From: Bacillota bacterium
GTDB taxonomy: Bacteria; Bacillota; Clostridia; Tissierellales; Tissierellaceae
Direction: 5' to 3'
Length of the DNA: 47,434 nt
Assembly: GCA_030602225.1 (NCBI GenBank)
Contig: JAUWAD010000005.1
Coordinates: 1 to 47,434, forward strand
Positions 2,931 to 44,774 of the stretch are shown here, in pieces. The notes below the pieces were generated by a model that was given only the letters and a program-made list of their open reading frames with translations, had not been told where the DNA came from and did no database searches. The position numbers and the translations under genes were made by a program. Position 1 is the first letter of the stretch. Every line of letters starts with the position of its first letter.

Positions 2931-2958
2931 TGGAAAGTCAATAATTGACTTTGCTTAA
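2931..2958 (+). repeat. Dyad element copy 1 (core GTCAATAATTGAC 2937-2949)
   Basis: Copy of intercistronic element, ~24 nt before the next ATG. Confidence 0.9.
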
Positions 2959-2972
2959 AAAGGAGTAAGAAT

Positions 2973-3512
2973 ATGGCTTTTCTAATGAGTCCGAAGGAAT
3001 TTACTCGGAGGAATATAAGATATGGTGAAGAAGGAACTGAAAAGCGAAGAAGAGAGTTGGCAGGATATGCTGGCATCTTACAAGAGCTTAAGGATCAAGG
3101 GGCTCTTGGTCTTCTGGAATCTGCTCAAAGATTTGAAAGACCAGAACAAGAAGCAAGAATTACTGGCCTTGGAGCAGAAACTGAGAGAACTCGACTTGGA
3201 ACTGCTGGAGAAGAGTTCTATCAAGGACTCTCTAGGAGATTTGCAGAACCTTTCATGAAGAAATATCTTGGTATGGAAGACTATCTTCCTGAACCTGAAA
3301 GAGCTGAGTTGCTTTCAAGAGAGAGAGGCCCTGTTCCAGCAAGTATTGGGCCAAGAACTGATATTGCCACTCCAAGAGGGCCTGGTGTTACTGGTACTTG
3401 GGAAGCTCCTAAACCTCCTACACCTTCTATTCTTGACAGATTCAGTAGAATGTTTGCTCCTAGAAAAAAGAAGCTAGCTCGGGATACTGCAGTACTAGGT
3501 GTAAGAGGGTAA
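2973..3512 (+). CDS. Hypothetical virion-arm protein, 179 aa
   Basis: ORF with RBS aaggag upstream; continuous with the structural cluster. Confidence 0.7.
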   Translation: MAFLMSPKEFTRRNIRYGEEGTEKRRRELAGYAGILQELKDQGALGLLESAQRFERPEQEARITGLGAETERTRLGTAGEEFYQGLSRRFAEPFMKKYLGMEDYLPEPERAELLSRERGPVPASIGPRTDIATPRGPGVTGTWEAPKPPTPSILDRFSRMFAPRKKKLARDTAVLGVRG

Positions 3513-3521
3513 GGAGATATT

Positions 3522-6500
3522 ATGCCATCTTTTGGAGAACGTTTACTTACACGAGCTATACAAAGTAGTATAGCTGAAGAAAGTAGAAAAAGAAGAGCTC
3601 TTGAGAAAGTGGAGAAAGATAAGGTATCTTTGCTTGCTGACCCAGCTACAATGGATAAATTAGTAGCTGACTTTACTACTATGATATCTCCTTCAAGAGC
3701 TAAGCTAGGAACAGACTTTGCCAGTAAAGTTGATGCTGCTGATGCTAATATTCCAAGTGACCATCCTTTAAAAGGGTATGGACATAGTCTTAGAGATAAT
3801 CTTCGTGCTCAGTTAGTAAGTCCGGAAAATAGAGGTAAGTCTATTGAACAGCTAATTTTACAACAATCTGGTAGAGAGCTTATTAAGAAGGGTAAAAGTG
3901 GTAAGTCTCTTTATGAAGAGGCTCATGAATATAAGTATAGAAAGGATTATGCTCCAGGTAACTGGTTTGGTCTTGCTGGAGAAGATGAAGATGTAAGAGC
4001 ACTTCCTGGGTATGAGGAGTTTAAAGAAGAAAAGGCTGCTATTACACCAAAAGAAATTACTACCACTTATAAACAAGCTCTTGGATTTGGTGCTGGATTT
4101 GCTGGGGCGGGGCAGTTAACAAGAAGGGCTGCTATTAAATGGGGAGGAAAGAGAGCAGTAAGTTGGGGAACTAAGAGACTTGTTACAGGTGCAGCTCTTG
4201 GGCCTCATGTTGGTCTTGCTGCTGTAGCTGCTGTTCCTGCTTTTAAGATATTTGATGCGACAGCTAATGTTATTGAAAGAAGTCATTTTGGAAAGTCTCA
4301 AGGTGCTATTACTAAGCTTACAACTGAGGTGATAATTGGTGGACTTATTCCTGCTTATGCAGGACATAAGATTTTAACTAAGAGTATTGCTGCAGCTGCT
4401 AAAGCAAATATTATAAAAGGTACTGCAGAGAAATTGCTTATGCGACTTCCTACAGCACGTAATGCTATTGTGCTTGGAAAGGCGAGAGCAGTTGATGCTA
4501 AAACACAAGCTGCTGCTGATGCTGCCATTAAAAAGGAAACTGCTAAACCTACTACTAAGAAACAATTCTTTAAAGCTGCTGATGATGAATATACAAGGCA
4601 ACAATTTGAGTATAGAGATTTATCAAGGTTTGAGAAACAAGAAATGGAAAAAGACCTTGCTGCTCCGTTTGCTAGTATATTTACCGGAGCTAGAACAGCA
4701 AGACCTAAGAATGTTGGCAAAATCTTTGCGAGTTTTACTGATGAACAGTCTGATGCAGCTCTGGTTAAAGCTAAGACTATTGGAATTAGAAAGGCTACTC
4801 AGCAAGTTAAGGAAGGAGCTGATGTACTCGAAGATCAAAGAGTGAAAGAGATTCGAGATGGCATACATAAAGGTCTTAAAGAGACAGATGAATATCTTAT
4901 TCCTAAAAAGTTATATACTACTGATGATTTAATTAGTCCATTTAAATCAAAGAAGCAGCAAAGGCTTACAACCTCTGCAGAGAAGAAAGTTAGTAAAACT
5001 CAGAAAGCTGCTAAAGAAGTTAATGATGCAGTAGATAAGGAAATACTTGCTGTTAAGATGACAGAGGTTGGTGAGGATATAGCAACTTCAAGAGCAGCTA
5101 TTGCTGAGATGGATAAAATCTTTAAAGGTGGCTTTGTACAGACAGAGACTGGTGCTGTTATAAGGAAGGAGGGGAAGAAAGCTGTTGTACAAGTTCCGGA
5201 TGAAGTGATTAGGAAGAAAGAAGCTGCTATACCCATTCCTGGAAAAAGGTATATATTTCCACGGGGAGAAAAGCTTTTTAAAGAAGTTGATGAAACACTG
5301 AAAGAAACAACAGAAGTAACTAAAGCATTGAAAGCTAAGATAGAAGTTTCCGTTGATGATATAACAAGGTACCATAGAAATATAGCTATTCCAGCTATTA
5401 AACAAGCTCTAGAAAGAGGAAAATTTAATGAGGCTAAAGCTATAATTCAGCAGACAAATTTAGATAAACATCCTATAGGTAAGAAGTTGGTAGCTAAGGT
5501 TGAAGAGGGGTTTGAAAAATATGGTACGCTTTCTGAAAAAGAACTAAAAGAATTAGCTCCTTTTAGAACAGTAATGGAAGAACTTGAAAGGGTTCCAGTT
5601 CCTTTTACTGACATACCAGAAGATGCAGTAGAAATCTCCTATCGAGAAGCAAAAAGAAGACTTCTTAAACAAGTAACAAAGAAAGATTCTATTGGAGAAG
5701 CAAAATTAGATGGTGCTATTAAAAATGCTGAAACATCAGTAGGAAAACAGGTAGAAAAACAACAGGGAAGAAAGCTTACTGAAGCAGAAATGTCTGATGC
5801 TGAATGGCTTGCAAGGGCTGGTGAGAGTGAAACTATTGAAGATATATTTGCTACTACTGATGGATTGATGAAGGAGGAATTTGATCCAAGTAAGTGGACT
5901 TTTTTTCTTCTGGCAGGAGTAACAGTTCCACTTTTAAGTTTAATTAGTACAGATGCTCAAGCAGGTATGACAAGTGAGGCATTAAAGGTTGCTGCTAATT
6001 CTAAAGTGCCTAAGATTGTAATTGATTCTTTAAAAGCAGCTGGTAAGTCAGGAAAACAGTTAAATAAGGAAATAATTGAAGGTGGATATACTTATATTCC
6101 TGCGGCTGAAGGGCAGAAGTTCTTTGGTGAAAGGATGAAAGCTATTAGTGTATCTGAAATGGTGGCTGAACGAGGAGAAAGATTATCTGATCAGATAATT
6201 AGATCAAAGAGTTTACCGTTTGGCTTTGATAGACTTATGAGTACAGCAGGATTTTCTAGATTATTTACAAAGGCTGGTGGTGAGCCTGCTATTGAATTGG
6301 GTAATAGGCATATAGTCTCTGGCTCTATGACTGAGAAAGGTTTACAAGTAGCTGATAATATTTATAGCTCTGTTAAGAATTATAATGCTAATCCTAAAGA
6401 AGTTATTGAAACTATGAAGCCTTTAGCTGAAAGATTTGCTGGTGAGGTTGGAGCATATAATAGTGTTGAATATCATATTAAGGCTATTAAAGGAATTAGA

Positions 6501-8378
6501 AATAAAGCTCTTGCTGATCTTAAGAAAGGAAAGTTAAAGGGCCTTGAGAAAGACGAAGTAATAGCAGGACTTAAAGAAGCTAAAATATCACTCAGAAGAT
6601 TAAATGATGCTCTGGAAGAGCTTGCACCTACAGCTGCAAAGTTTGAAAGTAATTATCAGGAAACAATTAAGATACTAGCTAAGAATAATCCATCTGTTAG
6701 AATGAGTTTAGCTGCTGAGGATACAGCTAAGTTTAAACATAATCCGTGGCTTGAACCACTAATGACCTTCGAGGAAAAAGAAGCTGTTGGGTACTATAAG
6801 AAGTTTATGGAAGAATATGCTGAGGAAATAGCGAGGGTTTATGGGAAAGATGCTGTTATAGAAAGCAGACCCTATATCCATCATGCCTTTCATCCAAGCT
6901 GGAAAACTAGATTTATTAACGATGAGCTTTTAAGACTTAAGTTAGGAATTAAACCACATCCTCCATATACTGAATGGCACAGTCGATCAAGGTATAGTAA
7001 ACAAATGGTTCCTCACATAGGATATAATACTGGAAGATATATTCCTGATGCTGAGAAGAGAATTCAAATGCGAGAATTCTGGGGCATAGACAAGAAAAAC
7101 AGTTGGCATGCTTTAAGACAAAGTCCTATGGTTCAAGGATCAGATGCACTGAGAGAATTCTTTCAGAGAATTCATAATGCTGGAATACCTGCATCTGATC
7201 ACTGGAGCAATAAAGCAGCTAATTGGTATAGTGCTATTGAGGTATTCAGACTTCTTGGATTTTCTACAAGTGTTGCTTTTAAACATCTATTTAAAATTCC
7301 TGGTACATGGGCACAACTTGGATTCATTCCTGCAGCTAAGCATATTCCTGAAACTATTCAAGTTTTTGCAAGAACATTTGCTCAGGGAAAAGGTGGTAAG
7401 GATATTGCAAGACAACTTAATTTAACAGGTAGAGCTGGAGAGAAGGCTGCTACAGATTTAATTGCTAAGACATTTTCTAGACAGTATGGTTATATGAATA
7501 CTATAATGGATATGGATATGGCAGTTAATGTTAATAGTACCTTTGAGACTGGTTTGAAGTGGTTAAATGAAAAAGGTGGAGTATTTGTAAGGGGTGTTGA
7601 GCACTTTGATAGGTCTCATGGTATTTTAGCTGCATCTGAACAAGCTGCTAAAAAAGGAATGACTGCCAAGCAAGCTGTGTATGGATTAGTTGATACAATT
7701 CTCAAGAATAACTTTTTAAGTGGAACACTTAATCCCTCATGGATGAGAAGTCCTAAAGTAAGAGCACTGTTTCTGTTTCAAAATACAGCCTTTAAAATAT
7801 TAGAGAGAAGGATTGTTGGAGGTATTAAAACTCTTGAACTTAGTAAAGCTGCTGGTAAGTCAATAAAAGAAAAAGGTTTAAGACAAACACTTAAAGAGCT
7901 TAGAGGAATAAAACAGTTTATAAAAGAAGGAGAACATGAATTTAAGGAAAGTATTATCCTTGATGCTTTAAATGCTGACAGAGGATACTTTGGAACCCCT
8001 CAGAGCATACAGTTTATGAAGGAAATTCTTATTATGGGAGCTATTGTAGGAGCTGGTGGAGTAGCAGGAGTTGATTTATGGGAGCATGCAAATCACATTC
8101 CCTTCTTAAAAGGTCATACTAAATATCCTGTACTTGCAACGTCTCCAATTTTTAATGCTATGTTTGATGTAAAGGCTAATAGAGCAGCTGCTGCTAAGGC
8201 AAGTAAAGCTCCTGAGTTCTTAATGACAGACTTTCTAAAAGAGTGGTTATGGCAAGGTAAGTATGGGCCATATCCTCAGTCAGTTAAAAAGCTGATGAGA
8301 TTATCTGATGATGATATACCTAAGAGATATAAAGATTCTAAATTTAAATACTTATTTTCAATTCCCGCTACTGAATAA
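3522..8378 (+). CDS. Very large (1618 aa) putative internal virion/ejection protein
   Basis: Largest ORF; hydrophobic Gly/Ala-rich segments and long charged helices; located among tail genes. Confidence 0.7.
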   Translation: MPSFGERLLTRAIQSSIAEESRKRRALEKVEKDKVSLLADPATMDKLVADFTTMISPSRAKLGTDFASKVDAADANIPSDHPLKGYGHSLRDNLRAQLVSPENRGKSIEQLILQQSGRELIKKGKSGKSLYEEAHEYKYRKDYAPGNWFGLAGEDEDVRALPGYEEFKEEKAAITPKEITTTYKQALGFGAGFAGAGQLTRRAAIKWGGKRAVSWGTKRLVTGAALGPHVGLAAVAAVPAFKIFDATANVIERSHFGKSQGAITKLTTEVIIGGLIPAYAGHKILTKSIAAAAKANIIKGTAEKLLMRLPTARNAIVLGKARAVDAKTQAAADAAIKKETAKPTTKKQFFKAADDEYTRQQFEYRDLSRFEKQEMEKDLAAPFASIFTGARTARPKNVGKIFASFTDEQSDAALVKAKTIGIRKATQQVKEGADVLEDQRVKEIRDGIHKGLKETDEYLIPKKLYTTDDLISPFKSKKQQRLTTSAEKKVSKTQKAAKEVNDAVDKEILAVKMTEVGEDIATSRAAIAEMDKIFKGGFVQTETGAVIRKEGKKAVVQVPDEVIRKKEAAIPIPGKRYIFPRGEKLFKEVDETLKETTEVTKALKAKIEVSVDDITRYHRNIAIPAIKQALERGKFNEAKAIIQQTNLDKHPIGKKLVAKVEEGFEKYGTLSEKELKELAPFRTVMEELERVPVPFTDIPEDAVEISYREAKRRLLKQVTKKDSIGEAKLDGAIKNAETSVGKQVEKQQGRKLTEAEMSDAEWLARAGESETIEDIFATTDGLMKEEFDPSKWTFFLLAGVTVPLLSLISTDAQAGMTSEALKVAANSKVPKIVIDSLKAAGKSGKQLNKEIIEGGYTYIPAAEGQKFFGERMKAISVSEMVAERGERLSDQIIRSKSLPFGFDRLMSTAGFSRLFTKAGGEPAIELGNRHIVSGSMTEKGLQVADNIYSSVKNYNANPKEVIETMKPLAERFAGEVGAYNSVEYHIKAIKGIRNKALADLKKGKLKGLEKDEVIAGLKEAKISLRRLNDALEELAPTAAKFESNYQETIKILAKNNPSVRMSLAAEDTAKFKHNPWLEPLMTFEEKEAVGYYKKFMEEYAEEIARVYGKDAVIESRPYIHHAFHPSWKTRFINDELLRLKLGIKPHPPYTEWHSRSRYSKQMVPHIGYNTGRYIPDAEKRIQMREFWGIDKKNSWHALRQSPMVQGSDALREFFQRIHNAGIPASDHWSNKAANWYSAIEVFRLLGFSTSVAFKHLFKIPGTWAQLGFIPAAKHIPETIQVFARTFAQGKGGKDIARQLNLTGRAGEKAATDLIAKTFSRQYGYMNTIMDMDMAVNVNSTFETGLKWLNEKGGVFVRGVEHFDRSHGILAASEQAAKKGMTAKQAVYGLVDTILKNNFLSGTLNPSWMRSPKVRALFLFQNTAFKILERRIVGGIKTLELSKAAGKSIKEKGLRQTLKELRGIKQFIKEGEHEFKESIILDALNADRGYFGTPQSIQFMKEILIMGAIVGAGGVAGVDLWEHANHIPFLKGHTKYPVLATSPIFNAMFDVKANRAAAAKASKAPEFLMTDFLKEWLWQGKYGPYPQSVKKLMRLSDDDIPKRYKDSKFKYLFSIPATE

Positions 8379-8384
8379 AATAGT

Positions 8385-8405
8385 AAGCGGCGTCAATTAT
8401 TGACT
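8385..8405 (+). repeat. Dyad element copy 2 (GTAAGCGGCGTCAATTATTGACT; core 8392-8404)
   Basis: Copy of intercistronic element, 20 nt before ATG. Confidence 0.9.
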
Positions 8406-8424
8406 ACCTCGCTGGAGAATACAA

Positions 8425-15109: not shown

Positions 15110-15126
15110 TTATTCTCCAGTAGGTT

Positions 15127-15149
15127 AGTCAATTATTGACTTTGCTTAG
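15127..15149 (-). repeat. Dyad element copy 3 (core 15128-15140)
   Basis: Minus strand CTAAGCAAAGTCAATAATTGACT. Confidence 0.9.
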
Positions 15150-18286: not shown

Positions 18287-18482
18287 CTTTCTTTTCCTTA
18301 TTATTCAAATAATATTGATCTAAGCATTCTTTCTTTGCTTTCCCATTTATACACTTTCTTTCATACAAACCACTTATACATTTGGTTGTAGGACAATCCG
18401 AATCCTGTTTAAAATATTTACACTCTTTTTGAATATAAGAATCACATTCAAAGCGGGCTACAATTTTACAACTGTTAGTCAT
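18276..18482 (-). CDS. Cys-rich small protein
   Basis: 68 aa with 8 Cys; overlaps its neighbours. Confidence 0.5.
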   Translation of the reverse strand: MTNSCKIVARFECDSYIQKECKYFKQDSDCPTTKCISGLYERKCINGKAKKECLDQYYLNNKEKKDGS

Positions 18483-19761
18483 TTAATTTACTCATCCTTT
18501 CAAGAGCAACTGCATAAGCTTCTATTGAATTATCAACTCCAGTACAAAATAGTTTCTGTTTGACACCAGCTTCAATACTTGAACCACTGCCCATAAATGG
18601 GTCATAAAGCATCTGTCCTGGGAGTGCTACTCTTTCAAGTAAGTTCTCCAGCAGCAGAACTGGTTTTTCATACTTATGAATTTTTTCAGTGGGATTAACA
18701 GGAGGACACTCAATCCAATTAGGCATGCCTTGTTTTATAATCCTTGAAGCATCTTTCCTTATATACATTATCTGTTCGTAACAGTCAGATGGCCAAGAGG
18801 TAGGTACATTACATCCTCCTGTTTCACGCTTAATCCAGATAAAAGGTTTAATATAGACTCTCCAGCCACACTCTATAAAGATATCTCTGAGATAGTTAAA
18901 GTGCTCCATTGCATGAAAAATATAGCCGTGTGCATCATACTTGGTGAAACGAAAGCTCTCTTTTGCAAGGAAATAATAACTTGCTAAAGCTTTATATTTA
19001 TCATCTCTAAAGTCTATTCCAGTAGCAGACTTCCCTCCTGTTCTTCCACCAACAGAGATACCAATTTTATCATGCTCAATTCCATAGAGTGGATCAGTTA
19101 AAAGGATATCAACTGAATTGTCAGGCACTTCAGACATATGATCAATAGCATCTGTGTAATGAAGAGTAAAAAGGTCTTTTTTGTCTTTGACCTTTTGCTC
19201 AAACTCCTTAATGCCTTCAATTGCAGCAGCTACTTTTTCAAGCCCTTTATAAGCTTTCTTAATTTCACTTGCTTTTTTGGCCTCTTTTAATTGAGGAAAT
19301 GCTTTTATCATCTCTGCCATTTGAAGCTGGTTAATTATACTTCCCTTAGTCTTTCCAATTAGCTTTGCAGTATCCTCTAAAGTATGACCTCCACTTGTTC
19401 CAGGTGTTGTAGCACCATGCTGTTCTACTTTAAAGTTATGAAGTTCTTCAACTGCTAAAGCATACTCTGCAGGAGTGTAGTCTTTTCTGTGAAGATTAGC
19501 TTCAAGTTCCAATTCTCTCATTTCCTTTGGGTCAGCTACATCTTCAAAAACTGCTTTTACTTGTACGCCTGCAAGGATACATGCAGCAAGTCTTCTGCCT
19601 CCATCTATAAGTTCAAACTTTCTGTTGATTACTATTGGAAGAATTTGCCTTGTCCTTTTAATAGACTTAGAAAGTTCTTCAATATCTCCCAGATCTTGTC
19701 GAAATCTGTTGTGCCCATCAGCCACTTTAATATTAGTTGGATCTGTTTGAATTATGTCCAT
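18475..19761 (-). CDS. ParB N-terminal nuclease-like domain + HTH fused to DNA methyltransferase
   Basis: 'INRKFELIDGGRRLAACILAG' (ParB-like), 'TLEDTAKLIGKTKGSIINQLQMAEMI' (KorB/ParB-like HTH), 'DILLTDPLYGIE' (motif IV variant), 'DPFMGSGSSIEAG' (SAM motif). Confidence 0.85.
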   Translation of the reverse strand: MDIIQTDPTNIKVADGHNRFRQDLGDIEELSKSIKRTRQILPIVINRKFELIDGGRRLAACILAGVQVKAVFEDVADPKEMRELELEANLHRKDYTPAEYALAVEELHNFKVEQHGATTPGTSGGHTLEDTAKLIGKTKGSIINQLQMAEMIKAFPQLKEAKKASEIKKAYKGLEKVAAAIEGIKEFEQKVKDKKDLFTLHYTDAIDHMSEVPDNSVDILLTDPLYGIEHDKIGISVGGRTGGKSATGIDFRDDKYKALASYYFLAKESFRFTKYDAHGYIFHAMEHFNYLRDIFIECGWRVYIKPFIWIKRETGGCNVPTSWPSDCYEQIMYIRKDASRIIKQGMPNWIECPPVNPTEKIHKYEKPVLLLENLLERVALPGQMLYDPFMGSGSSIEAGVKQKLFCTGVDNSIEAYAVALERMSKLND

Positions 19762-19773
19762 CTGCTTCCTTTC

Positions 19774-20001
19774 TTAAATTGCTATATAGATTTCATCTCC
19801 TTCAGAAACTGGAGCTCCTACTTTTAGAAGTAGTCTCAGAGTTACACCTTCTTTATGAGGAAGAAACTGTAATATAGGATTGTGAACTAAGTCAATATTA
19901 TGCTGATCTACAAGCTTAATAAGTACATGATTACCATTTTGTTCGAGAGAAATATAACATTCCTTATCATACGGTAATTCTGTAAAGATCTTTGGTTTCA
20001 T
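19774..20001 (-). CDS. Hypothetical small protein
   Basis: ORF with RBS aaggagg. Confidence 0.5.
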   Translation of the reverse strand: MKPKIFTELPYDKECYISLEQNGNHVLIKLVDQHNIDLVHNPILQFLPHKEGVTLRLLLKVGAPVSEGDEIYIAI

Positions 20002-20010
20002 ATTTCCTCC

Positions 20011-20277
20011 TTATATCAAACCAAGCTTCTTCAGCAAATCTAACTGTTCAACTGTAACAGGAATCTTCTTACCTTTTCCAGCTTTACTGGTAGATTTCTT
20101 CTTGGTCTGTAAGTTAATAATTACACTCTCTAAATCTTTTTGTCTCCTATCTGCATAGGAATTAAAAAAGACAGCCTGCTCATTAGGCGGCAGCATCTGG
20201 AACTTCTGATTTAGGTTTATTAATTTCATCTTCCATATCCTTTGGTGTAAGTTGATGATGACATACTGCACAGACAA
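20011..20277 (-). CDS. Hypothetical protein (true start probably internal: MKLINLNQKFQMLPPNEQAVFFNSY)
   Basis: ORF overlaps the upstream gene. Confidence 0.45.
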   Translation of the reverse strand: MSVQYVIINLHQRIWKMKLINLNQKFQMLPPNEQAVFFNSYADRRQKDLESVIINLQTKKKSTSKAGKGKKIPVTVEQLDLLKKLGLI

Positions 20278-20482
20278 ATGTTTGTATAGGAATTACTTCT
20301 GTTTTTCCAGATGTTGATAATAAAGGCGATACCCTTTTCAATTTATAGGTCTGAATAAAGTTATCAAACCCACACTTCTTACAAACTGCATGAGGTAAAG
20401 CCTCAAGTTCTGCTATTGTCATTTGTACTTTTTGTCCTTGTAAAGGGGTCTGTCTATTGTACTTTAGTCTTTGATTGTTCAT
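20183..20482 (-). CDS. Zinc-ribbon protein
   Basis: CKKCG...CAVCH two-CxxC ribbon. Confidence 0.55.
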   Translation of the reverse strand: MNNQRLKYNRQTPLQGQKVQMTIAELEALPHAVCKKCGFDNFIQTYKLKRVSPLLSTSGKTEVIPIQTFVCAVCHHQLTPKDMEDEINKPKSEVPDAAA

Positions 20483-21107: not shown

Positions 21108-21136
21108 TGCTCTTTCTCCTTTTGTTTAAGTAGTTA

Positions 21137-21156
21137 TGTCAAAATTTGACTTTGCT
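21137..21156 (-). repeat. Dyad element copy 4 (core 21138-21150)
   Basis: Minus strand CAGCAAAGTCAAATTTTGACA. Confidence 0.85.
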
Positions 21157-24908: not shown

Positions 24909-24938
24909 GATATTTCCTCCATAACTTCTAAGATAAGT

Positions 24939-24961
24939 AGTCAATAATTGACTTTGCTTGG
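24939..24961 (-). repeat. Dyad element copy 5 (core 24940-24952)
   Basis: Minus strand CCAAGCAAAGTCAATTATTGACT. Confidence 0.9.
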
Positions 24962-28677: not shown

Positions 28678-29106
28678 TTAAGTACATTTATATACATAGT
28701 CATCAACTTCTTTAGTACCTATTTTTACTCTCTTACACAAAGAAGAATAATCGACACATAAAGTTAATCTTGGATACTCCCCCTGTCCGAAAGGAGCTTT
28801 TTTATGTTGAAAATAGAAAGTAATTTCTCCCAGTCCCTTATTCGATTGGCTCTCTTCTCGTTTCTCCATATAATCAAAGGTGAATACAGTTTCCTCAATT
28901 AAGAGTGGAAGCGTTTTATCATCCTCTTTGGTCAGATAGATTGTAGCAGTTAGTACAGCAGAAGATTGATTTATATATACTTCTCTATTAAACTGCGTCT
29001 TCAACTCCTCAATAATAGGATATATATCCTTATGTCTTTCAATAGACTTAAGCTTTGATCTTTGTCTACGCATTGCAGTTTTTATTGTGTTTGTATAAAG
29101 TGTCAT
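28678..29106 (-). CDS. Hypothetical protein, 142 aa
   Basis: ORF; 'IKTAMRRQRSKLKSIE' resembles a segment of 30095-30481. Confidence 0.5.
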   Translation of the reverse strand: MTLYTNTIKTAMRRQRSKLKSIERHKDIYPIIEELKTQFNREVYINQSSAVLTATIYLTKEDDKTLPLLIEETVFTFDYMEKREESQSNKGLGEITFYFQHKKAPFGQGEYPRLTLCVDYSSLCKRVKIGTKEVDDYVYKCT

Positions 29107-29554
29107 TATTTCCTCCTTTAAGAAAGATTAAGTCTTCTTTGGTTAAACTGTCTTCTTCATGTTTTATAATGTCTTCAGCACTATAACCATCCTGCTTCAT
29201 TAATTTCCATCTCCTCTTTTTTTGTGCTGTGTCCTCAATATTTACTCTCTTTACTTCTCCGTTCTTATTCTTTTTAAAAGCAATTAAAGGAGACTGTGGA
29301 ATCTTTTTAAGTAGAACCCAAAGTTTTCCATCCTTCCAAAGTCTTTTCACTTTCATCTGTGCAGCTTTTATAGGATCAATATCAGATAGAATCTTTATTT
29401 CTCTCCTGAGAGAAAGAAGAACTTCTGTTTGAATTTCTCTATCTTCACAGGGAAGGAATAATTCATCTCCAAGTTCAGATTTACTAACTTCATCAAGCCA
29501 TTTTATTATAATGTCTCGGGTTTTCAAGTCAGTACCTTTACTTTCTTGTAACAC
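29066..29554 (-). CDS. Hypothetical protein, 162 aa
   Basis: ORF in a cluster of overlapping small genes. Confidence 0.5.
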   Translation of the reverse strand: MLQESKGTDLKTRDIIIKWLDEVSKSELGDELFLPCEDREIQTEVLLSLRREIKILSDIDPIKAAQMKVKRLWKDGKLWVLLKKIPQSPLIAFKKNKNGEVKRVNIEDTAQKKRRWKLMKQDGYSAEDIIKHEEDSLTKEDLIFLKGGNNDTLYKHNKNCNA

Positions 29555-29907
29555 ATTGTTCCTGGGGAGCTACTATAGTTATCTTTGACCCTACTTTTCC
29601 TATAAAAAAGACCAACTAAAAGTTTTTCATAGAAAATTTTAACGTCTGTGTAATGGCACAAGTCTTTTTCTTTTGGTTTTCGCCCTTTACCCAAGCCCTT
29701 TACTTTTATTACTATATACCTTTCCTGTCCGGGAATAAGAGCATGAAGAATAAACTTTTCTGCAGTCACCTTAGTTGTAAATGTCATTACTCCAACAGTT
29801 TCTTTTCTTGCCTCTACAACACTACCTTTTTTATAGTAAAGACAGTATTTACCTGTTATCAGACAACTCTTTCTATCTTCTGTTACTACTTTCCATCTTA
29901 TTAGCAT
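29524..29907 (-). CDS. Hypothetical protein, paralog of 30708-31100
   Basis: Shares 'G....AR(K/E)(E)T.GV..F.TK..A..F' and 'SSPGTMCYKKVKVL' with SSPPKGTICYPAVEVL. Confidence 0.55.
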   Translation of the reverse strand: MLIRWKVVTEDRKSCLITGKYCLYYKKGSVVEARKETVGVMTFTTKVTAEKFILHALIPGQERYIVIKVKGLGKGRKPKEKDLCHYTDVKIFYEKLLVGLFYRKSRVKDNYSSSPGTMCYKKVKVLT

Positions 29908-29936
29908 AGTTTCCTCCTTTTACTTCTCAGTAGAAA

Positions 29937-29959
29937 AGTCAATAATTGACATAGCTTAG
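29937..29959 (-). repeat. Dyad element copy 6 (core 29938-29950)
   Basis: Minus strand CTAAGCTATGTCAATTATTGACT. Confidence 0.9.
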
Positions 29960-30094: not shown

Positions 30095-30481
30095 TTAATT
30101 ATTCTGGAAGTATTCCTCTATTTCCTCTTCGTTCTTCCCATCTTGAAGCATCCTTCTTCTTATCTTCTCGTTATCTGTAGTACCAGTGCTGATCTTCTCT
30201 TCAAGAGGAGCTTCATTGCCTTCTGAATCAATTATAGCAAAGTTAAACTCTTCTATATTCTTACCAATAATAACTGCAAGATCATCTTCTTTAGTTCTCT
30301 TAGAGATAGTAATGATAGAAGCTATTGAAGGAGCAATCTTTTCAAGCTTATTTCTTTGCCTGTGCAGAGACATTCTTATTCTATCCATCTGTTTCTCATT
30401 ATCACACTTGATAACAAGAGTCTGTCCAGGTGGAAGATCTTCCATTACATAGTTAAATATGTCAATTGGATTAGCTTTCAA
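30095..30481 (-). CDS. Hypothetical protein, 128 aa
   Basis: ORF with RBS ggagg. Confidence 0.5.
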   Translation of the reverse strand: MKANPIDIFNYVMEDLPPGQTLVIKCDNEKQMDRIRMSLHRQRNKLEKIAPSIASIITISKRTKEDDLAVIIGKNIEEFNFAIIDSEGNEAPLEEKISTGTTDNEKIRRRMLQDGKNEEEIEEYFQNN

Positions 30482-30504
30482 TTATTTCACCTCCTTAATT
30501 TGAT

Positions 30505-30655
30505 ATACGGGGCAAGAATTGAACTTGCAATCAACAGGGCTGCCTGTTTTCAGTACTTACCTTCCCTATGGGGCTTTAGATATCCTCAGATAAGTCTTCA
30601 CCTGAATCGGTGCTTTGCAACACGAAAGCATTGAACCAATAATGCTATCCCGTAT
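30505..30655 (-). ncRNA. tRNA-like element: acceptor, D-like and T arms plus expanded central domain
   Basis: Minus strand: ATACGGG...CCCGTAT acceptor (7 bp); AGCA-TTATTGGTTCAA-TGCT D-like arm; GCAAG-TTCAATT-CTTGC T arm; AACAGG-CAGC-CCTGTT variable-arm-like hairpin. 151 nt is too long for an ordinary tRNA. Confidence 0.45.
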
Positions 30656-30707
30656 AAAGATATAGTTAAGTAGTATAACTCTTAATAGTCATCCTCACAC
30701 TCAGCAT

Positions 30708-31100
30708 CTATACAATTAGACTCTCCACAAAATTTGCATCGTTTTCACTTTCTCTTAATACTTCTACTGCAGGATAACAGATAGTTCCTTTTGGAGGAGA
30801 TGACATATCTGATACACAAGATTTTTTACTGTAGAAATACAGCAAACCTCCATAACCACAGATATATTTAGGAGTTTTACCTCTCCCAATAGGAAGAACT
30901 CTTAAGATTCTTTTCTCATATGCTGTTACAGTTTTTAAAAAGTTTTTAGCTTGTTTCTTCGTTTTAAAGCAGAATACTCCAAGTGTGTCCTCTCTTGCTG
31001 TCGTTATTCCTCCTTGTATATATCTAAGATTATAACCTTTTCTGTGTTCAAACATACTTTTATTATATTTTACTATTTTAAATACTGGCCTTCTTGGCAT
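30708..31100 (-). CDS. Hypothetical protein, paralog of 29524-29907
   Basis: See 29524-29907. Confidence 0.55.
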   Translation of the reverse strand: MPRRPVFKIVKYNKSMFEHRKGYNLRYIQGGITTAREDTLGVFCFKTKKQAKNFLKTVTAYEKRILRVLPIGRGKTPKYICGYGGLLYFYSKKSCVSDMSSPPKGTICYPAVEVLRESENDANFVESLIV

Positions 31101-32109: not shown

Positions 32110-32491
32110 ACCTCTAGAATAGAGGGATTATAATTTTTAGATATCGCTGATTGTAAACTGATTGTATTTATACTGGATGCCTCTCGCTGTCTCTTCCACT
32201 CTTTCTTAGGACATACTTTCATCCTTTGTTCACAAGCTCTTCAGCTTTTTGATCACTTACTCTTGAAACTACTACATTTTCATTTTTTACACACTTCATA
32301 ATTTCTCCTTTAATATTCTCAGTCTTTCTATTTGCTGTGTACTTTCAGTAAGATTTATTTGCTCTAAGACTTCTTGGCAATATCTAAAGCGACTTGATAT
32401 TTACCATTTTAATACCTAAAATTATATATTCTAAGGCTTGCTTAGTTGTTAGTTCTACCTTCATTTTATCTTCTCTCCTTTTAAGTATCCA

Positions 32492-32514
32492 TGTCAATTT
32501 TTGACTTTGCTTGG
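32492..32514 (-). repeat. Dyad element copy 7 (core 32493-32505)
   Basis: Minus strand CCAAGCAAAGTCAAAAATTGACA. Confidence 0.85.
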
Positions 32515-32787
32515 ATGATAAATTCCTGCTTTCTTCTTTTCATCTATAGTATAAAACCTAAATAGGAACTGTCTGTTCCTGTTAGGATTAATATATCTAC
32601 TTTTGGTGTTAATCTTAATACTCTCCTTTAAAAGGACTTGTGGCATGAAGTGCAGTAAGATAAACTTCATGCCAGGTTCATAATCCCAAAGATCTATAGA
32701 TTTATTTATCATAGATTTTGGATTCTCCTCTGCCCAGGTTCTGCCTGTGACTAAGGCCAGAATAAAATTTAGTGTCTTTTCTTGCAT
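32494..32787 (-). CDS. Hypothetical protein whose C-terminus is encoded by a dyad element
   Basis: ORF; the last codons H-P-S-K-V-K-N-stop lie in CCAAGCAAAGTCAAAAATTGAC. Confidence 0.45.
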   Translation of the reverse strand: MQEKTLNFILALVTGRTWAEENPKSMINKSIDLWDYEPGMKFILLHFMPQVLLKESIKINTKSRYINPNRNRQFLFRFYTIDEKKKAGIYHPSKVKN

Positions 32788-33002
32788 TCAAACCTCCAAG
32801 AGACTGTAAGAATTGCCTCTTACAGCCTGTTGAGGATTTAATTGGTAGTTTCAAGTTCCTTCTTTGCGAGTTCACCAAGCTCCTGTCTGTCTGCAGCAGA
32901 AAGTTCTTTAAGCTCTGTCATACTAACCCTATTAAAGTCATCTCCGAAATAGGTTCTGATAGCCTTTACATTGCTCATTTCCTGTGTTTCAGTCATTGTT
33001 AA

Positions 33003-33203
33003 TCACCTCCTTTGTCTCAAATAAAAGTTAAGATGTACATTAAAAGGTAAATAGGATAGTGCTTCATTTAAACTTGTAGGATATGCAAGTGCAAGCTCTG
33101 CTAATGGCCAACCCTCTTTTGGTGGAGTGAACTCCTTGCAGGTCTTTGAATCGTGCATAACTTCCCTGCAAGGTGTATTGCATCTATTACAGTCTGATCT
33201 CAT
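33003..33203 (-). CDS. Small Cys-containing hypothetical protein
   Basis: ORF with RBS aaaggagg, downstream of a sigma70-like promoter. Confidence 0.45.
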   Translation of the reverse strand: MRSDCNRCNTPCREVMHDSKTCKEFTPPKEGWPLAELALAYPTSLNEALSYLPFNVHLNFYLRQRR

Positions 33204-33278
33204 AGTTACCTCCTTTTGTTAAGATCTTCCATTATAACTCCTCCCTTTATTTAATTAATTTCAGTTTTAATAAGTACA

Positions 33279-33307
33279 TTTTAACATATTTACACCCAGT
33301 TGTCAAG
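33279..33307 (-). promoter_or_regulatory. Sigma70-like promoter, minus strand
   Basis: Minus strand TTGACA-actgggtgtaaatatgt(17)-TAAAAT; shares TTGACAACTG with the promoter at 25868-25896. Confidence 0.6.
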
Positions 33308-33340
33308 AACTAATTTCAAGTTACCATGTATATATTACAG

Positions 33341-33656
33341 GTAACATTGAACGGTGAACGAAAATAACATTGTACGAGAACACGGAACGGTGAACATTCT
33401 CTACCCTTTTCGGGTCAAAATAATTGACCTTGCTCAGATTCTCTCAGTTTTATCCTTTTAAGCTCTTTCTTTTCTTATTAATAATATATCTTATATATAT
33501 AATATTATTTATATATTAATTTAGGCTAAGAGAGAAATAAAAGACTTTAAAGAAGAGCTTAGAACATCTAAGCTAGGTCAACAAAATGGCACCGAAAAGC
33601 ACAGGGAATGTTCACCGTTCACCCGATATGGTAACATGTTCAATGTTCACCGTTCT
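33341..33656. other. Candidate replication origin: four mirrored GAACGGTGAAC iterons around an AT-rich core
   Basis: GAACGGTGAAC at 33349-33359 and 33385-33395; GTTCACCGTTC at 33610-33620 and 33645-33655; AT-rich 33472-33524; dyad elements or half-sites at 33414-33428 and near 33569-33582. Confidence 0.55.
33413..33437 (-). repeat. Dyad element copy 8, inside the origin candidate (core 33414-33428, 5-nt centre)
   Basis: Minus strand CTGAGCAAGGTCAATTATTTTGACC. Confidence 0.75.
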
Positions 33657-33682
33657 ATACCTTAAATCCTTCTCAGCTCCAT

Positions 33683-33705
33683 AGTCAATAATTGACTTTG
33701 CTTAG
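33683..33705 (-). repeat. Dyad element copy 9 (core 33684-33696)
   Basis: Minus strand CTAAGCAAAGTCAATTATTGACT. Confidence 0.9.
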
Positions 33706-33849
33706 TTATTTTAAGACTATATCAACTATTTCAGTTTGTAGTTTAAGAATTTCTTTTAAAACTTTTAACTCTACTTCTCGCTCCTTAATTTTCTTTTGTG
33801 TTATTTCTCTTTGGTTGATTAAGTCTATCTTTTGATCTTTAGTAAACAT
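33706..33849 (-). CDS. Small coiled-coil protein, 47 aa (not in track)
   Basis: MFTKDQKIDLINQREITQKKIKEREVELKVLKEILKLQTEIVDIVLK*; RBS aaaggaga. Confidence 0.5.
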   Translation of the reverse strand: MFTKDQKIDLINQREITQKKIKEREVELKVLKEILKLQTEIVDIVLK

Positions 33850-33898
33850 AGCAATCTCCTTTCAGAGCAGTTTATAGACTTACTCAGGTCTTGGTTGC

Positions 33899-34051
33899 TT
33901 AGTGAAAGTACCTGTAATAATTCCTGTAGAAGTTATCTTCTGGGTCTCTACTCTTTATTATCATCAGATCAATCAGCTCTCTAGTAGTTTGATTACAGAT
34001 AGTGTAAAGGCTGTCTAACTCAAGAAAGTCAAGTATTCTAACAAAGTACAT
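33899..34051 (-). CDS. Small hypothetical protein, 50 aa (not in track)
   Basis: MYFVRILDFLELDSLYTICNQTTRELIDLMIIKSRDPEDNFYRNYYRYFH*; RBS aaggaga. Confidence 0.45.
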   Translation of the reverse strand: MYFVRILDFLELDSLYTICNQTTRELIDLMIIKSRDPEDNFYRNYYRYFH

Positions 34052-34074
34052 AGTAGTCTCCTTTTAAGGTTTAT

Positions 34075-34263
34075 TTATTCATCTGTTAAAAGATCTCCCA
34101 GCATAATCTCAGTGATATCTGTAAGTGCTTCATCCAGTGTAATATGCCGATCAGTGTAATCATACATAATATCATTAAGCCTTTTCTTATAATTATCAGA
34201 TAATAGGCTGGTATCAACATCAGCCTTAATAATTATAGCTGTCATAGAATTACCCCCTTTCAA
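34075..34263 (-). CDS. Small hypothetical protein
   Basis: ORF; likely start MTAIIIKADVD after gggg. Confidence 0.4.
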   Translation of the reverse strand: MKGGNSMTAIIIKADVDTSLLSDNYKKRLNDIMYDYTDRHITLDEALTDITEIMLGDLLTDE

Positions 34264-35973: not shown

Positions 35974-36417
35974 GTGTTAGATATAGATACTGAAGTATTA
36001 CTTGACATGAATGAGAAGGGACTTACTTTTAAAGAGCAGGCTGAAGAACTTGGCTGTTCTCCTACTACTATATCTAATAGAATTGCTAAGATTCAGCAAG
36101 AGCAGGGAATCTTAATGAAGTACAGAACCCTCCAATCCCTTCAACTTACCAGTATACAAGCTAAAATCCTTGAAAGTATAACACCAGAAAAAATTGACCA
36201 GGCACCTTTAAGAGATCTTGTTGTTGCCTTTAAAATATTAAAGGATAAAGAACTTGTAGTAGATGGGAAACCTTCTGAGATTAAAGGGCTTGTTAGTTAT
36301 CTGATAAAAATGGAAAGAGAACAACTTGTCCTTAGTCAAGCTGAAGAAGTTATTGTTGAAGGGGAAGTTGAGGAATCTGGTTCTGTTGAAGATCCGGATT
36401 ATATTCCTGAGTTATAA
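35974..36417 (+). CDS. Putative small terminase subunit / HTH protein
   Basis: N-terminal HTH 'TFKEQAEELGCSPTTISNRIAKIQ'; first gene of the packaging module; GTG start after ggagg. Confidence 0.55.
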   Translation: MLDIDTEVLLDMNEKGLTFKEQAEELGCSPTTISNRIAKIQQEQGILMKYRTLQSLQLTSIQAKILESITPEKIDQAPLRDLVVAFKILKDKELVVDGKPSEIKGLVSYLIKMEREQLVLSQAEEVIVEGEVEESGSVEDPDYIPEL

Positions 36418-36418
36418 C

Positions 36419-36442
36419 TAAGGAGAGAAGTCAATAATTGAC
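36419..36442 (+). repeat. Dyad element copy 10 (core 36430-36442)
   Basis: CTAAGGAGAGAAGTCAATAATTGAC. Confidence 0.85.
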
Positions 36443-36451
36443 AATACTGAT

Positions 36452-39201: not shown

Positions 39202-39210
39202 GAGAATAGA

Positions 39211-41097: not shown

Positions 41098-41108
41098 TGG
41101 AGGATACT

Positions 41109-41231
41109 ATGAAAGCTAAATATATAAAACCTGAATATTATATTGTTGAAGAAATGATATTTATGTTTGCTATATTTAAAAAGTTAGGACATATCTGTAG
41201 ACAATGTTCCTCTTGTCATGGGTGTAGATAA
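41109..41231 (+). CDS. Small CxxCxxCHGC-like protein, 40 aa (not in track)
   Basis: MKAKYIKPEYYIVEEMIFMFAIFKKLGHICRQCSSCHGCR*. Confidence 0.4.
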   Translation: MKAKYIKPEYYIVEEMIFMFAIFKKLGHICRQCSSCHGCR

Positions 41232-41569
41232 TGAAATTAAAACACTGTTTCATTAATGAAGAAGGGAATATCTGGAGAGATACTACATTGATAGAAGCTG
41301 CTAAAGATCTTCTATCTGAAGTATTTGATATTACAACTATTTCTCTTGATGAAATTATTCGCTGGAAAATCTCAAACCTTAGAGATTATGTTAATCATTA
41401 CAAGCGGGTTCAAAGTGCAGATTGTTCTATCCCTATTATACTTAGATCAGATGGATATCCTATGGATGGTTGGCATAGAATTATTAAAGCAAGAGTAACT
41501 GGAGAAACTCTAACAGCAAAAAGGTTCTTGAAAGATCCAGAACCAGATTTTAAAGTTAATATTAAATAA
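41231..41569 (+). CDS. ParB/sulfiredoxin-like domain protein
   Basis: 'IPIILRSDGYPMDGWHRIIKARVTGETLTAKRF'. Confidence 0.5.
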   Translation: MKLKHCFINEEGNIWRDTTLIEAAKDLLSEVFDITTISLDEIIRWKISNLRDYVNHYKRVQSADCSIPIILRSDGYPMDGWHRIIKARVTGETLTAKRFLKDPEPDFKVNIK

Positions 41570-41581
41570 TTGGAGGATATT

Positions 41582-41788
41582 ATGAGTAATGACCCTTGGA
41601 AACATAGAAGTAGAGAAATGAGTTGTAGTACTTGTATGTGGAATGTTGAAAAAGTTAGTGAAGAAAGAGATGAAAAAGCTATAGTTGTGGGTCGCTGTCG
41701 TAAACATGCACCTACTATGGATGGTTACCCAGTTGTATTTAAAACTGACTGGTGTGGAGATCATAAACTTGACGAAAATAAAATATAA
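41582..41788 (+). CDS. Small Cys-containing protein
   Basis: MSNDPWKHRSREMSCSTCMWN...; ATG after ggagg. Confidence 0.5.
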   Translation: MSNDPWKHRSREMSCSTCMWNVEKVSEERDEKAIVVGRCRKHAPTMDGYPVVFKTDWCGDHKLDENKI

Positions 41789-41809
41789 GAAAATTGGAGG
41801 ATAAAGAAA

Positions 41810-42738
41810 TGCCTAAAGAAAACACTGCGCAAGATGCAGAAACAGATGAAACTGGAAAAGAGACTAGTGCTCTGGACAGTTTAGCTGCTGCGCTTGAAGC
41901 TAAGGATGATGTTGATAGTAAGGGAGATGCTGATGAAAAAACAGGTAAAGAAGGTGAAAAGGAAAAAGAGGGTAGTGAAGAAGGTTCTGAAACTTCTGCA
42001 GAAAAGAAAGGAACTGAAGAAGAAAAAGGAACTGAAGATGGAAAAGAGACTGGAGAAGAGAAGGTCTTTACAGAGGCTGATGAAATTCTTGAGTTAAGAA
42101 GCCTGTTAAGAAGTCAGAAAAGGGAAATGTCTCTTTTGAAAGCCAGGCAAAGTAGAGTTGATAAGAGAACCTCTAAGGTTATTGATGAAGAGACTGGAGA
42201 GGAAAAAGAGATTAAAGAAGATTTAACACCTCTTGAAACTAAGATTGAAGCAAAAAATGAACTTGGTGCTCAAAGAGGAGGGCCTCTCGAGGTTTTGCTT
42301 GAACAAATGTCAGACACAAAGAAATGGGGAGATGTTAAAGAAGTTGTTACTGAAAGTAGAGTTGATGAGATTATTGATACTATTGCTGACCATATTACTA
42401 AGGAGCAGGGTGGAGATCTTGAAGAAAATAGACTTGATATTGAACTTTCAGTGTGGAGTATAGCAAATCCTTATAAGTATATGTATGACCTTATTAAACA
42501 ATATCACCCTGATTATATTGAGAAGGGAGAGAAGAAAGAAACTGAAACTGATTCTGCGGAGAAAGATAAAGGAAAGAAAAAGGAACCTGTAAAGACTAAT
42601 ACTTCTATTGGCAGTATGACAGGTGGAACAGATAAGAGTGGTTGGACTTCTGCTAAGATTGATGCTATGGATGAAATGGACTTAGGAACAGTTCCTAAAG
42701 ATGTATATGATAAGTATCTCCGTGGAGAACTTGATTAA
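41810..42738 (+). CDS. Putative scaffolding protein
   Basis: Highly acidic, E/K-rich, between portal and capsid genes; MPKENT start preferred over track TTG. Confidence 0.7.
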
Positions 42739-42751
42739 AGGAGATTAAATA

Positions 42752-43786
42752 ATGGCTGAAACAAGATTTTTAACAAATGATAATCTAACCAGGAAAAAGT
42801 GGGCAAGGGATTTGTTTTCTATAATTCTTCCTGCAGTTGAATTTAACAGCTTGGTTGGTAAAGGAAAGAATGAGCCTATTCAGATAAGGACTGAATTAGG
42901 TAAAGGAGAAGGTGATCAAATTACCTTTGGTATTAGACTTCCTCTAACAGGTGAAGGTGTAGTTGGTTATGATACTGTAGAAGGTAATGAAGAACAGTTA
43001 ATCTTCCGTGACTTCAAAATGACTATTGAAGAGTTGAATCATGCTGTTGATTCGGGTGGTAAAATGGATCAGCAGAGAATGCCTTATGACTTAGTTGTAG
43101 AAGGTAAAGAAGGTCTGCAGGAATGGTGGGTTGATAAACTGTCTGACTATGTTATTAATGGTCTTGCTGGTAACAGTACTTTCAGAATTGCTGGTAAAGT
43201 ATTTGCTAATGCTATTACAGAACCTGATACTGACCATTTTCTGAAGATGAATGGTGTAGCTGAAGCTTCTATGACAGCTGCTGATGAAATGGATCTTACT
43301 TTTCTTGATGCTATGAAACAGAGGGCAGAAATGCCTACTGGAGATGCTTTCAAAGTACGTCCTCTTGTAAGAAAAGGAAAGAAGTACTACAAGGTCGTTC
43401 TTCACACTTATGTCTTTGACGCACTGAGACAAAATACCAATGTGGCTCAATGGGGTGATTTACTTAGAGCAGCTAATAAGCTCCAAGAACCTAATATTGA
43501 GTTTGAGTACAATGGTATGATGGTAATGAAATCTGAGAGGGTTCCTCAGGTACAGACTAATGTTTACAGGAATATCCTTGTTGGTGCTCAGGCTGGTTGT
43601 TGGGCTTGGGGTGGTGCTGGCGAAAGTAAATCCAGTGTCATGGCGTTTGTTCCTTATACCCGTGATGCTAAGAGATTCCTGATGTTCAGAGGTGGTGGTA
43701 TCTTTGGTTTTCAGAAGACTACTTTTCAAGATCTTGACTATGGTGTAATTGCTGGTTCCAGCTTTGCAACTGCGTTACAAGAATAG
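42752..43786 (+). CDS. Major capsid protein, N4-gp56-like family
   Basis: 'FLTNDNLTRKKWARDLFSIILPAVEFNSLVGKGKNEPIQIRTELGKGEGDQITFGIRLPLTGEGVVG'. Confidence 0.85.
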   Translation: MAETRFLTNDNLTRKKWARDLFSIILPAVEFNSLVGKGKNEPIQIRTELGKGEGDQITFGIRLPLTGEGVVGYDTVEGNEEQLIFRDFKMTIEELNHAVDSGGKMDQQRMPYDLVVEGKEGLQEWWVDKLSDYVINGLAGNSTFRIAGKVFANAITEPDTDHFLKMNGVAEASMTAADEMDLTFLDAMKQRAEMPTGDAFKVRPLVRKGKKYYKVVLHTYVFDALRQNTNVAQWGDLLRAANKLQEPNIEFEYNGMMVMKSERVPQVQTNVYRNILVGAQAGCWAWGGAGESKSSVMAFVPYTRDAKRFLMFRGGGIFGFQKTTFQDLDYGVIAGSSFATALQE

Positions 43787-43795
43787 GAGGGAGAT

Positions 43796-44203
43796 ATGAT
43801 ATTTAAGTATACGTATGCTAAAAGAGCTGATAATTTTCGTCTGGTTCGTAGTATAAAACTTATTGAACCTGCTGATGAAACATATTCCCTCATCCAGATT
43901 CCTCAGTATGCATTTATTACTGATGTATGGCTAACTAAACTGGTAGCTTATGGAGACTTAGCTGCCGTTCTTACAGTTGGTTTTACAGGTAATGGAGAAG
44001 CAGCTGATCCAGATGGGTTTATTGATGCTACTCTGGGAGATGCTGATGCAGCTGGTATAGTCAGAGCTACTGAGGATACTCAACCTGGAAGTAAAGGAAA
44101 ATGGTTCAATACTGCTGGTGGAGCAATCACTGCAACCTGTGATGATAATGCAGGAACTGTTGGTACGTTTTTTGTATCAGCTTTGTTTGTCGTTATCCAC
44201 TAA
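43796..44203 (+). CDS. Putative head-associated protein
   Basis: ORF immediately downstream of the major capsid gene. Confidence 0.6.
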   Translation: MIFKYTYAKRADNFRLVRSIKLIEPADETYSLIQIPQYAFITDVWLTKLVAYGDLAAVLTVGFTGNGEAADPDGFIDATLGDADAAGIVRATEDTQPGSKGKWFNTAGGAITATCDDNAGTVGTFFVSALFVVIH

Positions 44204-44227
44204 ATAAAACAATAGGAGATTATTATA

Positions 44228-44752
44228 ATGGCTATGTTAGATTTGAGAAGGGTTGACCTAAGGAGACAAACTCTGGAAAATCCTTACTGGGTAACCAGTG
44301 CTGAGATTAATAAGGATGCAGATGATGCAGAAGCTGTTCTGTTTTCGTTTCCTCTTACTGGTGGTGCAACTCCTAGTAGAGGACTGATTCTTATCACTGC
44401 AATCTGCTGTGAGATTATCACTGCTTTTGCTGGTGGTACTATCACACTTGATATTGGACTTGGTACTATTCCTCTGGAGAGTACAACTACAGCTGGTGTT
44501 GTTACTATAACTGATGCTGATGAGTTTATTATTAATACTGAAATTACTCATGGCACTCCTGCAACATACTTCCCTGCTGCTAGTGGTTGGGTAACTGCGT
44601 GGGTAGCTGGTACTTTTGTATCTCCTGTCGCAATTGTGCCTTTAGACGCTGATGTTCCTGTTGTATATGCAACGCTTGTGAGTGATGCAGCTATTACAGC
44701 TGGTGCTGCAAGAGTTCATGCGTTAGTTCATAGAGTGCCCTTAATGGGCTAA
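44228..44752 (+). CDS. Putative head-associated/decoration protein
   Basis: ORF in the head module. Confidence 0.6.
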   Translation: MAMLDLRRVDLRRQTLENPYWVTSAEINKDADDAEAVLFSFPLTGGATPSRGLILITAICCEIITAFAGGTITLDIGLGTIPLESTTTAGVVTITDADEFIINTEITHGTPATYFPAASGWVTAWVAGTFVSPVAIVPLDADVPVVYATLVSDAAITAGAARVHALVHRVPLMG

Positions 44753-44774
44753 GCTGAGAAGTCAAAAATTGACT
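44750..44774 (+). repeat. Dyad element copy 11 (core 44761-44773)
   Basis: CTAAGCTGAGAAGTCAAAAATTGACT; the TAA is the stop of the upstream gene. Confidence 0.85.

Follow-up and report, generated by a model that had tools for sequence, protein, structure and literature searches.

What is the role of a short inverted repeat that recurs between the genes of a phage genome, and which protein reads it? This question is raised by a stretch of 47,434 nt (hereafter, the window), the whole of contig JAUWAD010000005.1 (C102) in the 2.08-Mb assembly GCA_030602225.1, which carries 11 dispersed copies of the dyad GTCAA-N3/5-TTGAC. A previous reading, made from the letters alone (the sequence-only reading), had taken the element for either the operator of a dimeric DNA-binding protein or an RNA hairpin. 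Our analysis strongly supports a dimeric DNA-binding protein and does not support the hairpin. We consider it probable that the copies are dispersed loading sites, similar to parS and to the OB sites of the KorB protein, for an orphan ParB clamp that carries a DNA methylase and probably covers the whole phage genome in cis.

The window is organized in two opposed arms, a structural arm on the plus strand (terL, portal, capsid) and a replication arm on the minus strand (PolA, primase, a ParB-methyltransferase fusion, AAA ATPase, PD-(D/E)XK nuclease, ligase). All 11 copies were confirmed where they had been reported, each position being that of the first base of GTCAA on the plus strand. The core is a perfect dyad of 13 bp, two 5-bp half-sites around 3 bp. 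Copy 1 (2928..2955, plus strand as are all the others except copy 2; core 2937-2949, GTCAATAATTGAC) has the right flank TTTGCTTA and a weak left flank; copy 2 (8386..8413, minus strand; core 8392-8404, GTCAATTATTGAC) is in reversed orientation; copy 3 (15119..15146; core 15128-15140) lies between genes of the minus-strand arm. They are followed by copy 4 (21129..21156; core 21138-21150, GTCAAAATTTGAC), copy 5 (24931..24958; core 24940-24952), copy 6 (29929..29956; core 29938-29950) and copy 7 (32484..32511; core 32493-32505, GTCAATTTTTGAC). Copy 8 (33405..33434) has a 5-nt centre (GTCAAAATAATTGAC) and lacks the left AG of the flank described below; copy 9 (33675..33702; core 33684-33696) has a syntenic copy at position 450 of a relative, L009; copy 10 (36421..36448; core 36430-36442) is absent from L009; copy 11 (44752..44779) has its core at 44761-44773 (GTCAAAAATTGAC).

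Shuffling under an order-2 Markov model gave 0.065 expected occurrences of GTCAA-N3-5-TTGAC and a maximum of one in 200 shuffles, compared to the 11 observed. The arms had been described as invariant; indeed, allowing one mismatch added no copies and allowing two added background only (15 hits). GTCAA-N3 is the most over-represented 5-bp dyad of this genome (log10 p = -19.5). The pattern GTCAANNNTTGACNNNRCT does not occur again in the rest of the 2.08-Mb assembly, and none of 195 same-class genomes contains a stricter form of it. A simple gene call puts nine of the 11 copies between genes, in a window with 8.6% non-coding sequence; the copies at 24940 and 32493 touch weak open reading frame calls. 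The previous claim that most copies start within a few nt of a stop codon and end 10-35 nt before the next ATG is a better description of the structural arm, where the gaps measure 34-46 nt, than of the replication arm, where the copies at 21138, 29938, 33414 and 33684 lie in longer gaps.

Relatives were collected by terminase and capsid alignments (~130 IMG/VR contigs and 3 contigs from bacterial or archaeal metagenome-assembled genomes, MAGs). The element, whose conservation the sequence-only reading had proposed to check, is present in them, often at different gene junctions: 103 exact GTCAA-N3-TTGAC occur in 1.48 Mb of contigs, with flanks common to most. Element-bearing genomes hold 3-14 copies each, and in complete genomes with at least six copies GTCAA or a variant of it ranks first among the dyads (log10 p ~-11 to -41), compared to -4.5 for the strongest dyad in shuffled contigs. 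Within each genome the half-site is uniform, and most relatives have a dyad of the same geometry. The other half-sites with N3 geometry are CGTAA (seven copies in L244, three in L252), GCAAT (six in L298, three in L296), GTAAT (four in L300), GTGAA (L281 and L290), TACAC (G203, where AAATACACA-N1-TGTGTATTT occurs 11-12 times) and GTCCCA (six dispersed copies in L312, the annotated Desulfofustis phage OP947158). One genome without GTCAA-N3, G197, has GGTCA-N5-TGACC ten times, always intergenic. The L009 counterpart of the 33684 copy is oriented alike and differs by a symmetric change, from AGTCAA/TTGACT to GGTCAA/TTGACC. An exact scan of viral contigs with the long pattern returned 48 hits, mostly single-copy and consistent with chance. 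Two members of the phage group come from bins of uncertain host, a Micrarchaeota MAG (contig C16, L188/G206) and a Woesebacteria MAG (L189).

We also characterized the sequence around the core. The full motif is asymmetric, AG(T)-N6-GTCAA-WWW-TTGAC-N4-CT, and the consensus of 69 well-oriented sites, selected partly by these AG/CT flanks, is YMAGTnAAAAnGTCAAwwwTTGACnTTkCTkR; relative to the core, AG stands at -9 on the left and CT at +5 on the right. AG and CT peak at the same offsets when all offsets are tabulated over 133 non-redundant sites. The CTAAGC-like box noted before is one half of a flank that is two-sided and asymmetrically spaced. In four more distant relatives (L291, L298, L300, L312) the cores differ and are surrounded by another conserved outer flank, CTAT/CCT ... 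ATAG/AAAGG, which suggests a putative second contact, beyond the half-sites, that evolves more slowly.

Orientation was scored on the AG(T)-N6 and N4-CT flanks, the 33414 copy being judged by eye from its right flank. The polarity of the element had been said to follow transcription; it does not, as ten of the 11 copies share one physical direction across both arms, the exception being 8392. A fixed physical strand polarity was rejected as a family-wide rule, the relatives showing just a moderate bias, 27 to 13. Stoperators of L5-type phages, to which the element had been likened, are oriented with transcription. In the relatives the flanks are sense in 18 cases and antisense in 22, and both directions occur within one operon, so that the analogy fails on orientation as it does on symmetry, the core being a perfect dyad. 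Of 82 sites in nine complete genomes, 64 fall between genes, where 5.0 would be expected. The sites are spaced more evenly than an equal number of random gene junctions (p = 2e-9 when the nine genomes are combined by Fisher's method; the individual p values range from 0.001 to 0.16 and, the genomes being related, the combined value is optimistic). This placement, the even spacing and an orientation unlinked to transcription argue against promoters, terminators or stoperators and for a function that needs coverage of the whole genome.

Which protein reads the element? BLAST clustering found six families in all complete element-bearing genomes, TerS, TerL, portal, primase, PolA and the fusion of ParB with a methyltransferase (MTase), and among them only TerS and ParB-MTase have a helix-turn-helix (HTH). 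The fusion used as bait retrieved 78 loci, down to ~25% identity, among them the contigs with CGTAA, GCAAT, GTAAT, GTGAA and GTCCCA half-sites listed above, and dyad-bearing contigs were found by this bait alone at identities as low as 26-30%; PolA as bait gave one distant relative only. An over-represented N3 dyad is present in 25 of the 36 ParB-MTase contigs that reach 18 kb; among 21 control loci of 9 kb or more, which had been fetched by motif, three have one (GTCAA in one of the three). Half-site distance correlates best with HTH-domain distance (r = 0.67, 22 contigs with dyad log10 p beyond -5). Given ParB_N, linker and MTase, the partial r of the HTH is 0.47, a value reached in 0 of 5000 permutations (p < 2e-4); given the HTH, it falls to 0.06 for ParB_N and 0.08 for the MTase. 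More specifically, an unbiased 16-residue sliding window placed the peak of covariation at residues 109-148, the HTH region. An earlier partial Mantel test on the recognition helix alone was weaker (r = 0.27, p = 0.011), and the HTH-domain test, with its stricter site threshold, was chosen after that result. Pairs of helix and half-site recur, TEGN with CGTAA in L244 and L252, SREK with GCAAT in L294, L296 and L298, and (K/R)G(S/T/N) with GTCAA in distinct contigs. The ParB-MTase fusion, one of several proteins previously named for binding assays, is now the leading candidate reader, by coevolution and by elimination.

In the window, the predicted reader is a ParB_N-HTH-N6/N4 DNA methyltransferase fusion of 428 amino acids (18475..19761, minus strand). 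ParB_N spans residues ~1-112, the HTH helices 128-135 and 139-154, a long helix 164-192 and the MTase ~197-428. In profile comparisons the N-terminus resembles Spo0J/ParB/Noc and the C-terminus the DpnA/MboIIA/CcrM-type methyltransferases; over residues 22-153 the fusion matches TIGR00180 (1e-14, just short of its curated cut-off) and TIGR04285 (Noc), and the MTase matches Pfam N6_N4_Mtase above the cut-off. An AlphaFold model (mean predicted local distance difference test score 78.5, predicted template modeling score 0.64) shows ParB_N, the recognition helix at 139-154 and the MTase fold, and Foldseek matched it with Spo0J/Noc/ParB and with M1.HpyAVI/CcrM/MboIIA. The HTH segment alone, as a single-sequence query, returned nothing useful from the PDB. 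The protein has the ParB nucleotide motifs GGRRLAAC and NLHRKDYTPAE (N-x-x-R-K-x-x-T-P-A-E) as well as the MTase catalytic motifs TDPLYGI (DPxY type) and DPFMGSG (DPFxGSG type). In Caulobacter ParB, residues contacting parS include G170, K171, S172, R173 and N178, and residue 173 is one of the four specificity positions (PMC7383237). The phage GK(S/T)(K/R) stretch resembles Caulobacter residues 170-173, a similarity of motif only, and the positions that follow it differ according to the half-site.

We propose that a dimer of this fusion would read the dyad via its HTH, with a second, asymmetric contact at AG/CT outside the 13 bp. A nucleoside triphosphate-dependent ParB clamp could then load at each dispersed site and slide, and with sites at gene junctions every few kb it would cover all phage DNA in cis, where the attached methyltransferase may mark or coat it. 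Self-marking or coating would be the most likely use, because the clamp carries a DNA methyltransferase; long-range silencing of the KorB type or compaction, by the same reader, are close alternatives to self-marking. We hold more tentatively a specific version, a self-targeting epigenetic system in which evenly dispersed, phage-specific sites would load a sliding clamp whose MTase marks only DNA in cis. The phage might in this way tell its own genome from that of the host by loading site and topology, not by methylated sequence, each lineage having a private pair of site and reader.

Several observations weigh against this proposal. The C-terminus of the fusion is an MTase in place of the canonical ParB C-terminal dimerisation domain, clamp closure being only predicted, and several ParB-fold proteins bind ATP or GTP instead of cytidine triphosphate (CTP), according to a 2025 survey (PMC12704722). 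A symmetric dimer does not explain the asymmetric AG/CT flank. In G198, G200 and G201, many copies lie inside called genes. The fusion is present without a clear dyad of this kind in G204 and G208 and in the annotated phages Mel-JY34 and MW202489; relaxed intergenic 4-bp dyads in G204, G208 and G209 are weak candidates only (TCGA-N3 five times in G204; GATA-N15 six times and TTCA-N5 five times in G208). The covariation set is small, 22 contigs of which 15 have GTCAA, and phylogenetically related. Finally, in the ParB-MTase of the Desulfofustis phage (10342-11634), DFPY and SPFLGSG replace the DPPY and DPFxGSG of active enzymes; this methyltransferase may be altered or inactive while the six GTCCCA sites remain, and methylation may consequently not be the universal purpose.

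We regard as rather unlikely, though with a precedent in KorB (PMC11790492), that the same protein at the same sites acts as a long-range repressor timing the early and late genes of a virulent phage, with a secondary or regulatory MTase. The sites do lie at gene junctions just upstream of start codons, and they cluster near the divergent arm boundary (32493-33684 in the window, 19453-20341 in G201). However, most are inside operons with no evident promoter, they are evenly spread, their flanks ignore the direction of transcription, the junctions are often not conserved between relatives, and the MTase is kept across the family.

We find it less likely still that the element is the operator of a small phage regulator, stoperator-like or phiC31-CIR-like, the covariation with the ParB HTH being a by-product of shared ancestry. 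One master regulator acting at dispersed intergenic operators is known from SPBRE/MrpR (PMC10516654) and from stoperators, and small, fast-diverging HTH proteins could escape BLAST clustering. Yet the HTH alone carries the partial correlation, which disappears for the remaining parts of ParB-MTase, this protein alone retrieved dyad-bearing contigs at identities as low as 26-30%, and the replication-arm proteins above 200 amino acids include no integrase-like protein.

A reader role for the probable small terminase subunit (TerS, 35974..36417, plus strand), whose N-terminal HTH would recognize dispersed pac-like sites, is very improbable. TerS is present in all 16 genomes, with the N-terminal HTH in most; however, its recognition helix is near-identical in G203 (TACAC) and G196 (GTCAA), which have different sites and different ParB helices, the TerS HTH also occurs in G208 and G209, which lack a dyad, and a large number of regularly spaced pac sites would be hard to explain. 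Hardly any credence is left for an RNA or single-stranded DNA hairpin acting as a terminator, processing or translational element. The core arms are complementary around a 3-nt centre, and flank position +-1 is complementary in 56 of 119 sites (32 expected), but the outer-flank complementary run is 0.71, as in permuted pairs (0.71, p = 0.52). An outer stem was rejected by this permutation, with no compensatory changes beyond the core; the arms are invariant within a genome instead of covarying, orientation is unrelated to transcription, and a search of Rfam gave no match. Complementarity of centre positions 1 and 3 is not above expectation either (61 of 119, 54.7 expected, G201 excluded). A mini mobile or recombination element (a boundary sequence) inserted at gene junctions, to which one might ascribe the absence of the 36430 copy from L009 (there, the genes on either side meet directly, with a stop at 2069 and an ATG at 2071), is just as implausible, given that copies within a genome share binding positions only, with no extended sequence, and that, from one genome to the next, the half-site and the ParB HTH change together.

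As to the genome that carries the copies, an imperfect 143-nt repeat links the contig ends (1-143 and 47292-47434), and for this reason the contig probably represents an entire phage genome of ~47.3 kb, assembled as a circle. This phage contig was binned into a bacterial or archaeal MAG, and binning does not establish the host. No integrase, recognisable repressor or ParA was found among the replication-arm proteins above 200 amino acids, every one of which was assigned, and a nucleotide search of positions 20000-44000 against phages gave no match. The minus strand has a possible duplicated gene pair of no known family (29066-29907 and 30095-31100); its 162- and 128-amino-acid proteins co-cluster across 12 genomes, and the adjoining 127- and 130-amino-acid proteins are similar by eye. 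Near the divergent arm boundary, a long stretch with few convincing genes (33203-34075) contains two copies of the element, separated by 270 nt, and the cluster of copies at 19453-20341 in G201 resembles it.

If correct, our reading gives predicted cognate DNA sites to common phage ParB-MTase fusions of open role, and a code linking recognition helix to half-site in several lineages. The pattern of coverage points to a cis-acting, genome-wide loading. One purified protein and a 28-bp oligonucleotide would suffice to test the function of the fusion, and the phage family offers a natural panel for the evolution of specificity in the ParB family.

How does this system compare with those already known? 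OB sites are found in several places on RK2, a replicon similar in size to the phage genome. KorB/OB has, as here, a ParB N-domain with an HTH and a 5-3-5 palindrome in several dispersed copies. KorB is a CTP clamp of the ParB family that binds a palindromic operator with the 13-bp core TTTAGCGGCTAAA and slides from OB sites along DNA, acting up to 1.5 kb away (PMC11790492). It differs in having its own C-terminal domain, a KorA partner and a plasmid repressor function, whereas the phage fusion ends in a DNA methyltransferase; we recognised no partner of the ParA or KorA type in the phage, although no search was aimed at KorA, and the phage copies, unlike those of KorB/OB, are evenly spaced around the genome. 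ParB-parS and Noc-NBS share with the phage system a palindromic site read by a central HTH, and Noc sites are dispersed over the chromosome; they differ in their 16-bp sites, in the ParA partner (ParB) or membrane function (Noc), and in the lack of a methyltransferase.

More distant parallels are the SopB centromere sites of N15 and F and the phiC31 CIRs, dispersed inverted repeats in a phage genome with a phage-encoded binder, which have other partner proteins and function in partition and lysogenic repression. L5-type stoperators resemble the element in being numerous, short, intergenic and recognized by a single phage protein, but that protein is a monomeric immunity repressor and the sites are asymmetric (PMC9283540). 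In SPbeta, an intergenic repeated element is likewise read by one phage-encoded protein; SPBRE is a 15-bp promoter-region motif and MrpR a repressor with a tyrosine-recombinase fold, in a temperate phage (PMC10516654).

Closest in protein architecture are the known fusions of a ParB fold with an N6N4-MTase. According to the survey, these are common, enriched in phages and prophages and of open function, with only anti-defence or phage-host interaction suggested (PMC12704722). For one of them, BCE_0392 of a B. cereus prophage, an older study failed to find a methylation specificity and described a nicking-associated activity (PMC3459991). The phage fusions of the survey and BCE_0392 have the same domain pairing as the window protein. 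Our literature search, which did not cover subscription papers, found no report of cognate dispersed sites for ParB-MTase fusions, nor do the survey passages mention binding sites. What our analysis contributes is a predicted set of dispersed cognate sites for a phage ParB-MTase, together with the way in which they covary with the HTH, a variation on the ParB-parS and KorB-OB theme.

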